Made by a program: the position numbers and the translations under genes
The notes under the pieces: generated by a model
What the model saw: only the letters and a program-made list of their open reading frames with translations
Databases searched by the model: none
What the model was told of the DNA's origin: nothing
Shown: piece by piece, positions 5,954 through 40,205 of the stretch
How positions within the stretch are numbered: position 1 is the first letter of the stretch
Layout: each line of letters starts with the position of its first letter
Assembly (NCBI RefSeq): GCF_001561955.1
Contig: NZ_CP014223.1
Coordinates: 620,001 to 684,000 of the forward strand
DNA length: 64,000 bases
Direction: 5' to 3'
Origin: Anaerotignum propionicum DSM 1682
GTDB taxonomy: Bacteria; Bacillota; Clostridia; Lachnospirales; Anaerotignaceae

Positions 5954-6146
5954 CAAAATCCTGAAGTGTTCGAGAGCTTACTATATTTGAACCTACAATA
6001 CTGACTCGGGATTCCTATATGCAGAAGTTATGTCAGGCCCCAAGATAATTCCCTTTGGGCAGGGGAAGGCAGAGACTTTGGCTGCGGTTACCCACCTGGC
6101 TTAGGCTAGGTGTCAAGCGGTAAGAACGGCACTTCGGGATATTTTT
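5954..6146 (+). ncRNA. ssrS: 6S RNA
   Basis: A roughly 190-nt RNA that binds housekeeping RNA polymerase holoenzyme by mimicking an open promoter, used in stationary-phase control. The ends pair as a closing stem (ATCCTGAAGTG near 5958 with CACTTCGGGAT near 6130-6140). Internal Firmicutes 6S landmarks are present: TTTGAACCTACAATACT, AGGCCCC, GGCAGAGACTTTGGCTGCGG and the hairpin CACCTGGCTTAGGCTAGGTG. It has its own near-consensus promoter and a downstream terminator. The assignment rests on recalled family sequence and structure, not on a covariance search. Confidence 0.87.
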
Positions 6147-15982: not shown

Positions 15983-16594
15983 ATGATAGCAATTATAGAT
16001 TACGGCGTAGGGAATTTGTTTTCCTTGAAAAGCTCTCTGGGGGTTATCGGTGCTGAGGTTCAGGTGACAGGGGATGCGGACGTTATTCGAAACAGTGAAA
16101 AGATTATCCTTCCCGGTGTTGGTGCCTTTGAGGATGCCATTGGAAAGCTTAGGGAAACAGGCTTGGATATGGTAATACTAGAGGAAGCGGGAAAAGGAAA
16201 ACCTTTACTCGGTATTTGCCTAGGGATGCAAATGCTATTTGAAAAAAGCTATGAATATGGAGAGCATATGGGTTTGGGTTTGATTGAAGGCAGTGTGCAA
16301 CCTATTGCCCCTGTGATTAGAGAGGGGTTAAAGGTTCCTCATATTGGTTGGAATGGGCTAATCTTTTCAAAGAAAAGAAGTGTTTTATACCGCTACATAG
16401 AAGAGGGTGAGTGCGTTTATTTTGTACATTCCTTTGCGGCTATGGATTGCGATTCTGCGGTAACGGCAACGACGGAATATGGTGCAATGCTTACTGCATC
16501 TGTAGAAAAAGAGAATGTATACGGAACCCAATTTCATCCGGAAAAAAGCGGTGAGGTAGGGCTAAAGATATTAAAGGCATTTTGTGAATTGTAG
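15983..16594 (+). CDS. hisH: Imidazole glycerol phosphate synthase, glutaminase subunit
   Basis: A 203-aa class I glutamine amidotransferase that feeds ammonia to HisF. IIDYGVGNLFSLKSSL begins the protein; GICLGMQMLFEKS holds the catalytic Cys, and GTQFHPEKSGEVG holds the catalytic His and Glu. It starts at the base after the hisB stop. Unusually, it is separated from hisA by about 645 bp filled with tandem repeats, while hisF, its partner, lies beyond hisA. Confidence 0.95.
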   Translation: MIAIIDYGVGNLFSLKSSLGVIGAEVQVTGDADVIRNSEKIILPGVGAFEDAIGKLRETGLDMVILEEAGKGKPLLGICLGMQMLFEKSYEYGEHMGLGLIEGSVQPIAPVIREGLKVPHIGWNGLIFSKKRSVLYRYIEEGECVYFVHSFAAMDCDSAVTATTEYGAMLTASVEKENVYGTQFHPEKSGEVGLKILKAFCEL

Positions 16595-16596
16595 AG

Positions 16597-17211
16597 TTTA
16601 AGACCTTGGGTTCACCCAAACCCATCCGCTTTTTGAAAAAAGCGGAGCAAAAATTTTTATATCAAACCGTGTATACACGGTTTGTAAGGGTCAAGGGAGG
16701 AAGTCCCTTGTGGGGAATTGGGGCAAAGCCCCAAGGTCTATGTTTTGCATTGTAAGTTAAGAACTTGGGTTTCACCCAAACCCATCAGCTTTTTGAAAAA
16801 AGAGGAGCAAAAATTTTTATATCAAACCGTGTATACACGGTTTGTAAGGGTCAAGGGAGGAAGTCCCTTGTGGGGAATTGGGGCAAAGCCCCAAGGTCTA
16901 TGTCTTGCATTGTAAGTGAAGACCTTTACCTAAACCCAACCGCTTATTGAAAAAAGAGGAGCAAAGACTTTTATAACAAACTGTGTAACATAGTTGCAAT
17001 GGGGTCAAGAGGGGAAGTCCCTTGTGGGGAATTAGGACAAAGCCCCAGGGTCTATGTCTTGCATTGTAAGTGTAGACCTTCACCTAAACCAACCGCTTAT
17101 TGAAAAAAGCGGAGCAAAAACTTATATATCAAACCGTGCATACACGGTTTGCAAAGGGTCAAGGGAGGAAGTCCCTTGTGGGGAATTGGGGTAAAGCCCC
17201 AAGGTCTTAGT
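16597..17211 (+). repeat. Four tandem copies of a ~155-160 bp structured repeat between hisH and hisA
   Basis: Units begin near 16600, 16759, 16919 and 17073, so the spacings are about 159, 160 and 154 bp. Units 1, 2 and 4 are close copies; unit 3 is more diverged. Each unit contains several hairpins. Unit 1 has CCGCTTTTTGAAAAAAGCGG (16626-16645), the palindrome AAACCGTGTATACACGGTTT (16664-16683), CAAGGGAGGAAGTCCCTTG, GGGGCAAAGCCCC, and ends (GACCTTGGG ... CCCCAAGGTC) that pair to close the unit. Short open frames cross the units but have no ribosome binding sites. The array starts 2-3 nt after hisH and ends about 30 nt before hisA. Confidence 0.93.
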
Positions 17212-17239
17212 CTTTTTATGAATAGAAAGAGAGGAACTT

Positions 17240-17965
17240 ATGAAGCTTTTTCCAGCGATTGATATAATTGAAGGATGCGCCGTCAGGCTAGTAAAAGGCG
17301 ATTATGCACAAAAGACAGTCTATAGTAAACAGCCCGTTGCTGTTGCGAAAGGATTTGCAAAAGCCGGGGCGACTTATTTGCATTTGGTGGATTTGGAAGG
17401 TGCTAAGGATGGAGGCACTCCAAATTTGGAGGTAATCCGAAAAATTGTGAAAGAAAGTGGACTGTTGGTTGAGGTTGGCGGTGGCATCCGTTCGGAGGGA
17501 ACCATCCAAACATATCTGGAAGCAGGGGTTTTTCGCGTCATTTTGGGTACGGCGGCAGTGGGGAATCCAGATTTTTTAAAGGATATGGTAGTAAAATATG
17601 GTGAGAGAATAGCCGTTGGTGTGGATATTAAGGACGGTATGGTAGCCGTGAAGGGTTGGACTGAGCTTTCTCAGGAAAGCTGCTTTGATTTTTGTGAAAA
17701 GCTTGAAAAGATTGGCGTGAAAACTATTATTTGCACGGATATTTCAAAGGATGGTTTACTTGCTGGTACTAATTTGGCATTGTATCGGGATCTATCAGAA
17801 AAATTTAGGGTGGATATTGTTGCTTCAGGCGGAGTAACGACCCTTGCAGATGTAGAGCAATTACAAAAAATGGGTCTCTATGGTGCGATTTTAGGGAAAG
17901 CCTTATATACAGGAAATATTGATTTGAAAAAGGCCATTGACATGACAAAGGAGGAGCGCCTATGA
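17240..17965 (+). CDS. hisA: Phosphoribosylformimino-5-aminoimidazole carboxamide ribotide isomerase
   Basis: A 241-aa (beta/alpha)8 barrel isomerase converting ProFAR to PRFAR. The N-terminal FPAIDIIEGCAVRLVKGDYAQ holds the catalytic Asp; VEVGGGIRSEGTIQTYLEAG and later CTDISKDGLLAG hold the phosphate-binding loops and second Asp. ATG follows AGAGAGGAA, just beyond the tandem repeat array. It overlaps hisF by 4 bases. Confidence 0.95.
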   Translation: MKLFPAIDIIEGCAVRLVKGDYAQKTVYSKQPVAVAKGFAKAGATYLHLVDLEGAKDGGTPNLEVIRKIVKESGLLVEVGGGIRSEGTIQTYLEAGVFRVILGTAAVGNPDFLKDMVVKYGERIAVGVDIKDGMVAVKGWTELSQESCFDFCEKLEKIGVKTIICTDISKDGLLAGTNLALYRDLSEKFRVDIVASGGVTTLADVEQLQKMGLYGAILGKALYTGNIDLKKAIDMTKEERL

Positions 17966-30957: not shown

Positions 30958-31031
30958 TCGAGGCGACAAGATTTGAACTTGCGACCTCTACATCCCTAAT
31001 GTAGCGCTCTACCAAGCTGAGCCACGCCTCG
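30958..31031 (-). tRNA. tRNA-Pro (anticodon AGG)
   Basis: On the minus strand the acceptor arms CGAGGCG and CGCCTCG pair fully, with discriminator A at 30958. The D-arm is GCTC/GAGC, the anticodon stem CTACA/TGTAG, the variable loop AGGTC and the T-arm GCAAG-TTCAAAT-CTTGT. The anticodon loop TTAGGGA places AGG at 30995-30997 with G37, so it reads CCU. The CCA end is not encoded. A34 in a bacterial proline tRNA is uncommon and would need deamination to inosine for wobble reading. The 3' end faces the accessory region at 21.7-30.9 kb. Confidence 0.93.
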
Positions 31032-40106: not shown

Positions 40107-40120
40107 TAATAAATATCTCA

Positions 40121-40205
40121 GATAATGGCAAACTCGGCGAAAGCCAAGGACGCAAAGCCACGGGTCTAAAGCATTCTGCTATGATAGCCGGGTTACCGAA
40201 GAGGT
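40121..40205 (+). promoter_or_regulatory. Cyclic di-GMP-I riboswitch (GEMM-I)
   Basis: GGCAAACTCGGCGAAAGCC is followed by AAGGACGCAAAGCCACGGG and then TAGCCGGGTTACCG, the conserved aptamer of class I c-di-GMP riboswitches, including the GAAA tetraloop and its receptor region. It is followed by an intrinsic terminator at 40219-40250 and a secreted protein gene. Whether ligand turns the gene on or off depends on pairing between the aptamer and terminator and was not resolved. Confidence 0.93.

Follow-up and report, generated by a model that had tools for sequence, protein, structure and literature searches.

The window analyzed here, a stretch of 64,000 nucleotides from the genome of Anaerotignum propionicum DSM 1682, contains a complete his operon that runs hisZ-G-D-C-B-H, then a repeat array, then hisA-F-IE-J. 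Among the ten his genes, hisZ is the sole one scoring below the cut-off of its best model (230 versus 271.65 bits). A first-pass annotation of this DNA had described four head-to-tail repeat copies between hisH and hisA, in an operon whose other genes are tightly packed, and both observations are correct. The remaining his junctions overlap or measure 0 to 10 nt, and the 645-nt hisH-hisA gap is occupied by four tandem units (window positions 16600 to 17210). Head-to-tail copies span 16595 to 17222 at spacings of 160, 154, and 154 nt, and TRF reported a repeat at 16611 to 17214 with a period of 154, 3.9 copies, 87% matches, and a score of 870. The features of the array and its flanking genes are given below, with bit scores for the units from two covariance models, R1 (left arm) and R2 (right arm).

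15983 to 16594, plus strand: hisH, the gene before the array (TIGR01855, 220.8 bits)
16600 to 16741, plus strand: unit 1, a complete element (R1 80.2 bits, R2 77.9 bits), with left arm at 16600 to 16658, central palindrome at 16663 to 16684, and right arm at 16688 to 16739
16740 to 16758, plus strand: spacer 1, similar to the hisH end (letter shuffling gives P = 0.001, in a set of 14 comparisons)
16759 to 16901, plus strand: unit 2 (R1 70.4 bits, R2 77.9 bits; 97% identical to unit 1), with left arm at 16759 to 16818 and right arm at 16848 to 16899
16919 to 17056, plus strand: unit 3, with degenerate left arm and center (R1 35.4 bits, R2 62.5 bits), left arm at 16919 to 16972 and right arm at 17002 to 17053
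17073 to 17210, plus strand: unit 4, with shortened left arm and intact right arm (R1 33.9 bits, R2 74.9 bits), left arm at 17073 to 17125 and right arm at 17156 to 17207
17240 to 17965, plus strand: hisA, the gene after the array (TIGR00007, 273.1 bits; ATG at 17240), with an AGAGG ribosome-binding site read from the sequence at about 17230

Full his units are about 140 to 146 nt long. They begin with AAGACC, hairpin 1, ACCC, hairpin 2, an A-rich link, and a central hairpin, and continue with a right half made of GGGT, hairpin 4, YGGGG, hairpin 5, and GGTCTT. An element arm is the series AAGACC, hairpin, ACCC, hairpin; two such arms, inverted, flank a variable hairpin core, and the AAGACC...GGTCTT ends are terminal inverted repeats like those of MITEs. 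Judged by eye, the conserved hairpin feet are AAGACC, ACCC, GGGT, and GGTCT; the foot of the REPIN hairpin carries a GTAG-type tetranucleotide. The closed multi-hairpin fold previously ascribed to every unit holds for unit 1, whose quoted arm ends are intact, but arm ends are altered in units 2 to 4: unit 2 reads GAACTTGGG, and units 3 and 4 lack part of the left arm (GACCTTTACC and GACCTTCACC). The closed fold therefore differs among the four units. Similarly, the palindrome centered on GTATAC is exact in units 1 and 2 only: unit 3 has a degenerate version, and unit 4 has GCATAC.

Because the host genome is a single contig of 3,120,417 bases, and because the complete chromosome of Anaerotignum sp. 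MB30-C6 (locus L045) carries three right arms at the same place, an assembly artifact is unlikely to lie behind the array. Copy number does vary, but between species; the assembly error that would have refuted the first-pass reading was not borne out. The closest relatives of the host genome are named Anaerotignum and kin.

Further copies of the unit, whose absence from this genome and from relatives would have counted against the first-pass reading, were recovered both by DNA search and with the covariance models. Searching the host genome with the unit gave 14 matches at E ≤ 0.001, two of which are the palindrome against its own complement, and the same search found matches in 25 of 60 genomes, host included. 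With the covariance models, the host genome has at least 25 R1 and at least 25 R2 matches at E ≤ 0.1, which merge into at least 23 places; these counts are lower bounds from the best 150 candidates scored per genome. Merging left out seven of the 25 R1 matches (five short and two longer opposite-strand self-matches), and two weak places among the 23 (around 300 kb and 3,080 kb) exceed E = 0.01 and were not recovered at E ≤ 0.001. R2 is present in 27 of the 60 genomes, a number that includes the host and five of the 24 genomes from other families of the order, with 0 to at least 100 matches per genome (best 100 candidates scored in each). In the genomes searched, the element family is thus dispersed, patchy, and burst-like. 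The arms are arranged as inverted pairs, as in REPINs, either left with right or two right arms, and some places hold a single arm.

Several of these loci have other features of their own. Regular tandem right arms occur at L265 (1 to 540), L272 (1151 to 1520), L223 (1174 to 1604), and L148 (1105 to 1429), all in other genomes. Arm pairs flank small genes at L050 (2206 to 2969), L061 (2166 to 2978), L268 (1169 to 2582), and L270 (1256 to 2459); the flanked L050 ORF has no NCBIfam match, and the L270 gene is NrdR-like by eye. Such arms may carry cargo, or may equally be separate elements. Other REP-like hairpins, of the GGGGCAGACAT...GTCTGCCCC type and the GTAGGGGAT type, are seen in some element cores (L008, L257, L277, L278, and L282).

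The position of the array inside the his operon invites the explanation that it is a histidine-specific attenuator or riboswitch, and the array does contain weak terminator-like hairpins (4, versus 1.0 with an SD of 1.1 in shuffles). We regard this as highly improbable, given that the same arms lie, by gene models, at gyrB-gyrA, argB-argD, murD-ftsW, pgsA-cinA, and jag-mnmE in the host genome (several flanking genes are cut at locus ends, and gyrB and gyrA score below equivalog cut-offs) and, by ORF reading only, at recR, yqzL-recO, glnK, ftsH, and others. A cis-regulatory leader or riboswitch is expected upstream of one gene class; these arms sit beside unrelated core genes, at gene ends. Within the array, no hairpin is cleanly followed by a U-tract, and Rfam returned no family at gathering score and three chance-level matches at E ≤ 5. 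Elsewhere in the window, Rfam matches at 40117 to 40200, 5955 to 6144, and 30958 to 31031 are a c-di-GMP-I riboswitch, 6S RNA, and a tRNA on the minus strand, respectively.

We then scored placement relative to genes in 61 clusters, 20 from the host genome and 41 from 40 stretches of three other genomes (G003, G004, and G007); 54 were scorable and seven were not. Of the scorable clusters, 22 lie between convergent genes, one between divergent genes, 21 between tandem genes in the co-directional orientation, and 10 between tandem genes in the opposite orientation. The excess of convergent over divergent sites is significant (P = 6e-6), and the orientation within tandem genes gives P = 0.07; gene calls were crude (longest open frames), orientation is less sure for mixed or single-arm clusters, and two G007 stretches (L245 and L246) carry similar elements with the same neighbors. 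The elements sit at gene ends. The TAAGACC end of the element overlaps or abuts the upstream stop codon at L276 (2095 to 2097, recR), L309, and L219.

The places are also concentrated near coordinate 0 of the chromosome, which we infer to be the replication origin because gyrB-gyrA lies at 7 kb. The enrichment was seen in the host genome (Kolmogorov-Smirnov [KS] P = 8e-6 for 23 places; P = 9e-5 minus the two weak places), in G004 (KS P = 0.04; 8 places), and in G006 (KS P = 1e-6; 20 places among the matches listed, of 72). Gyrase binding has been proposed for enterobacterial BIMEs, and by analogy the element might act at the DNA level by binding a protein of the nucleoid or of DNA topology, gyrase for example, so that the transcript would not matter. 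The near-origin enrichment would suit such a role, as would hairpins that are nearly perfect on both strands and copies found between gyrB and gyrA in two genomes (the second, G004, by ORF reading). The near-absence of elements between divergent genes and their excess at gene ends point instead to transcripts or to tolerance, and we consider a DNA-level function decidedly unlikely.

REPINs are accompanied by a RAYT transposase (PMC3116915). A RAYT profile (A9) that we built from G006 matched three of 60 genomes. NF047646, the curated RAYT model, matched 25 of 60 at E ≤ 1e-5, with two genomes over its cut-off and six at 50 bits or more; among these six, only G006 carries the element. Three genomes with at least 99, 96, and 96 right arms (G052, G023, and G044), each 95% complete or less, had no NF047646 match. 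Set against the R2 counts, the results with A9 and NF047646 led us to reject RAYT as the driver for most of the element-rich genomes tested. Of the seven RAYT loci read in G006, one (L263) is located within an element, perhaps by chance insertion, and a further two, which form a duplicated stretch, have a weak arm match at a distance of about 600 nt. Weak NF047646 matches (29 to 38 bits) in G000, G002, G004, and G007 proved to be IS200-type loci; IS200 was rejected as the driver, as the ends read at these loci are unlike the element, and the weak matches of G031 fall outside the loci read. The search for a partner transposase covered the Y1 class. Y1 transposases (PF01797) occur in seven of eight genus genomes; none was found in G003, a genome with at least 60 right-arm matches. 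We read the flanks of 12 Y1 loci from the genus, and searches of 11 of them with both arm models gave no match. Nor was there a match in phages and plasmids searched with unit 1, or in viral contigs searched with two narrow exact patterns. Empty sites are, by eye, too diverged to define an insertion junction, and a target-site duplication could not be read. Judged by the profiles, the enzyme that would spread the element in most element-rich genomes tested is no recognizable RAYT.

Unit 1 is predicted to fold at -63.2 kcal/mol, compared to a mean of -36.6 for shuffled sequences (z = -7.2). Since the unit is a palindrome, both strands fold similarly, and the complement of unit 1 reaches a z of -7.1. 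Across five folded units (the four his copies and one pgsA copy), the element strand lies 5.2 to 7.3 SD below shuffles and the opposite strand 4.8 to 8.2 SD below; the whole array gave a z of -7.5 (20 shuffles). As the two arms repeat a single plan in inverted form, a unit has two alternatives, a local fold with five hairpins or a single long closed stem.

Covariation in the paired arms, which had been posed as a check on the predicted structure, was found, with compensatory change in every arm helix. We aligned arms, those of the his copies among them, by fitting to the models. This gave 127 right arms, of which 119 are distinct, and 81 left arms, of which 79 are distinct; such alignments lean towards the structure, and their counts are inflated by related copies. 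Paired cells made up 94.4% of right-arm and 96.4% of left-arm positions, levels reached in none of 500 shuffles, and sliding the structure lowered pairing to 25 to 72% and 37 to 65%, respectively. Double changes occurred at 14 of 14 right-arm pairs and 12 of 15 left-arm pairs, again matched by none of 500 shuffles. The arm hairpins therefore vary by compensatory changes. The seven his copies from four genomes, taken alone, had 97.7% of cells paired (0 of 500 shuffles) and double changes in seven cells (0 of 500 shuffles); their covariation is thin, with double changes in three of 43 pairs (a count of three reached in 64 of 500 shuffles) and five further pair types, not above shuffles (476 of 500). 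Their central hairpin had double changes in one of nine pairs, with two rows unpaired there. A spacer hairpin was predicted in the copies folded.

In a strand-neutral count, the stems contained 2201 Watson-Crick pairs, 14 G-T, 5 A-C, and 11 others. G-U pairs are few, and their ratio to A-C (14:5) gives P = 0.064; we prefer this count to the plain one (87:42 in all), which is distorted by alignment register. The rarity of G-U fits maintenance of DNA hairpins or correction of palindromes at least as well as selection on RNA, and the pairing data do not distinguish RNA from single-stranded DNA as the folded form. Nearly pure Watson-Crick stems with so few one-sided intermediates raise the prospect of covariation without selection, in which template switching within palindromes rewrites one hairpin arm from the other. 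This process, compatible with the other readings, would leave unexplained both the conservation of unpaired stretches, for example the right-arm GGGT, and that of the his copy between species, and we think it improbable as the source of the pattern.

We next compared the hisH-hisA junction among relatives, using the best 80 of 442 loci, of which 77 have hisH beside hisA. The gap is 59 nt or shorter at 67 of the 77 loci (four of them, with genes overlapping by one base, were flagged by the script) and exceeds 100 nt at the other 10. Five of these long gaps, of 344, 556, 601, 184, and 181 nt, contain the element, with 2, 3, 3, 1, and 1 right arms, respectively. At L050 and L061, the gap has arms on both sides of a small ORF. 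In Chakrabartyella piscis (L048) two genes occupy it (929 to 1414 and 1559 to 2746), one RAYT-like (77 bits; its cut-off is 80) and one from IS110, and neither model gives an arm match; at L066 and L079 it seems, by eye, to have other content. The junction seems prone to insertions. Within the genus, seven of eight genomes, host included, carry the element at hisH-hisA (in G002 only its start is seen, as the contig ends inside the left arm), and G006 has none. All his copies read point with transcription.

The his copies are better conserved than silent sites nearby. In 15 pairs among six genomes, the best element pair between species is 80 to 93% identical without gaps, and 55 to 92% with gaps counted (lowest with the long left arm of L045), versus 41 to 63% at the four-fold sites in hisD, C, B, H, A, and F; between species, the operon is nearly saturated at silent sites. 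We also built a tree from 60 elements that have both arms; it rests on 114 columns and leaves 28 of 56 inner branches open. One branch, supported at 99/97, separates the 11 his rows, which come from five genomes, from 49 others that include copies from the same genomes and the rows from the L050 and L061 gaps. As those two rows lie outside the his clade, their elements look like separate insertions. MB30-C6 has no row, since its first left arm exceeds the length limit and its other two elements have no left-arm match. Tandem copies group by genome (94/86 for the four copies of the window, 96/60 for the two of L043, and 99/83 for the three of L046), with full support only for L046.

The spacers add a local signature. 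In the window, the 24 nt of spacer 1, counted from where unit 1 ends, match the hisH end. Three spacers resemble the downstream flank: that of L043 (P = 0.0005) and, more weakly, one from L045 (P = 0.0065) and one from L046 (P = 0.008). The other 10 of 14 comparisons, from which one L046 spacer with an N was left out, gave P > 0.05. After correction for 14 tests, only spacer 1 and the L043 spacer survive. Duplication seems to have carried bits of the neighboring flank along with the units, the side differing from species to species. Taken together, element identity, four-fold sites, tree, and grouping indicate one insertion before the sampled Anaerotignum species split, followed by vertical descent under constraint, and in part indicate duplication or homogenization within each genome, giving 1 to 4 tandem copies. 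The idea, raised at first pass, of a mobile-like intergenic repeat that expanded in place is thus well supported, by dispersed relatives and by species lacking the element at hisH-hisA as to mobility, and by flank-like spacers and by copies that cluster by genome as to expansion.

Two further sites served as controls. Modules at pgsA and recR are 83 to 98% identical between species without gaps, compared to 88 to 98% for his modules; recR left arms fall to 63% when length is counted, some pgsA and recR cores carry insertions, and the few rows from these sites do not group by site in the tree. Six of eight genus genomes have an arm in the pgsA-cinA interval (in G001 it is changed), and six of eight have one following recR; G004 and G006 lack it at both sites. 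G017 and G008 also have the recR arm; in the recR survey, eight of 30 loci fetched, drawn from 37 genomes with a match, had an arm. Because these copies are nearly as conserved as those in his, the constraint may belong to the element family and not to a his-specific job. The his clade, and a G007 his right arm that averages 96% identity to three his arms of other species, against 87% to 32 right arms dispersed in G007 itself, make it unlikely that his elements are re-copied from dispersed ones.

Conservation of this kind is also what a purely selfish element might show, one whose insertion at hisH-hisA was tolerated and whose sequence is held by its own replication through DNA-hairpin arms, with no role for the host. 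Besides the similar conservation at pgsA and recR, the patchy bursts (0 to at least 100 scored matches per genome), the almost perfectly Watson-Crick stems, and the other insertions that relatives carry at the junction are in keeping with it, and the partial degradation of units 3 and 4 speaks against a function for the host. An immobile resident, however, should decay towards the 41 to 63% of silent sites, and the his lineage is a separate conserved clade; on balance we find the purely selfish account rather unlikely.

We therefore favor the reading that a non-autonomous, REPIN-like palindromic element, present in tandem copies, makes up the array. In its identity and history we have high confidence; that these hold jointly with constraint for the host's sake, we think somewhat probable. 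A role as an intercistronic RNA structure is plausible from the sequence. The array would be transcribed within the his mRNA, with no clear terminator, and each unit would fold, so that the message's hisG-H half is separated from its hisA-J half by a multi-hairpin block. Such a block could act on the RNA as a barrier, or as an element governing processing or stability, and so set how much each half yields relative to the other; copy number might serve as a slow dial on that output, and the host would presumably benefit. This specific regulatory step is tentative, a possibility to which we give less than even weight. The array may be a structured RNA that tunes hisA-F-IE-J expression, another of the earlier suggestions, as the his copy appears constrained and all his copies read point with transcription. 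At the speculative end, the element might found a new REPIN-like superfamily of Clostridia, moved by an enzyme that is neither RAYT nor a known Y1, whose his member is an RNA rheostat with its copy number (1 to 4) re-set per species to balance the halves of the pathway; we consider this combination improbable.

These results bear on the old question of whether small bacterial palindromic repeats are parasites only or working parts of operons. Here one insertion can be traced across species, set against relatives without the element, and accompanied by a measure of constraint, and natural variants with 1, 2, 3, and 4 copies open domestication to a direct test. That RAYT is missing suggests another machine by which REPIN-like elements can spread.

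Our literature searches listed no description of this element family, which is not proof that it is unpublished, and several known systems resemble it. Candidate structured RNAs from human microbiomes (PMC8040213) include structured intergenic palindromes on both strands, and that report names REP as a possible class among them; one of its 250 palindromic motifs may be this family. ERIC, RU, and other bacterial MITEs are likewise small, palindromic, and intergenic, with no transposase of their own (RU-1 is 127 bp and RU-2 168 bp). For our element, no target-site duplication was read and no partner transposase was found within the Y1 class; the likeness to ERIC and RU is one of description. REP sequences have an intercistronic or 3' placement near gene ends (PMC12306157), are co-transcribed with flanking genes, and are proposed as barriers to exoribonucleases. 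The likeness to REP and BIMEs is drawn without sequence comparison; our unit is much longer, belongs to Clostridia, and keeps an orthologous position across species while its copy number changes. REPINs, as described in PMC3116915, come closest in plan: they share the inverted pair of repeated palindromic modules with a variable spacer between, the hairpin or "clover" alternatives, the extragenic location, and tandem clusters whose units include flanking sequence. They differ in size, since our element has two hairpins per arm and about 140 to 146 nt, whereas GI doublets have 71 bp between 16-mers (PMC3116915), and in partner, RAYT not being found in most element-rich genomes tested. REP doublets are described there as randomly distributed in extragenic space, whereas our element is biased to gene ends, and one copy of it appears to have been kept, under constraint, inside a biosynthetic operon.
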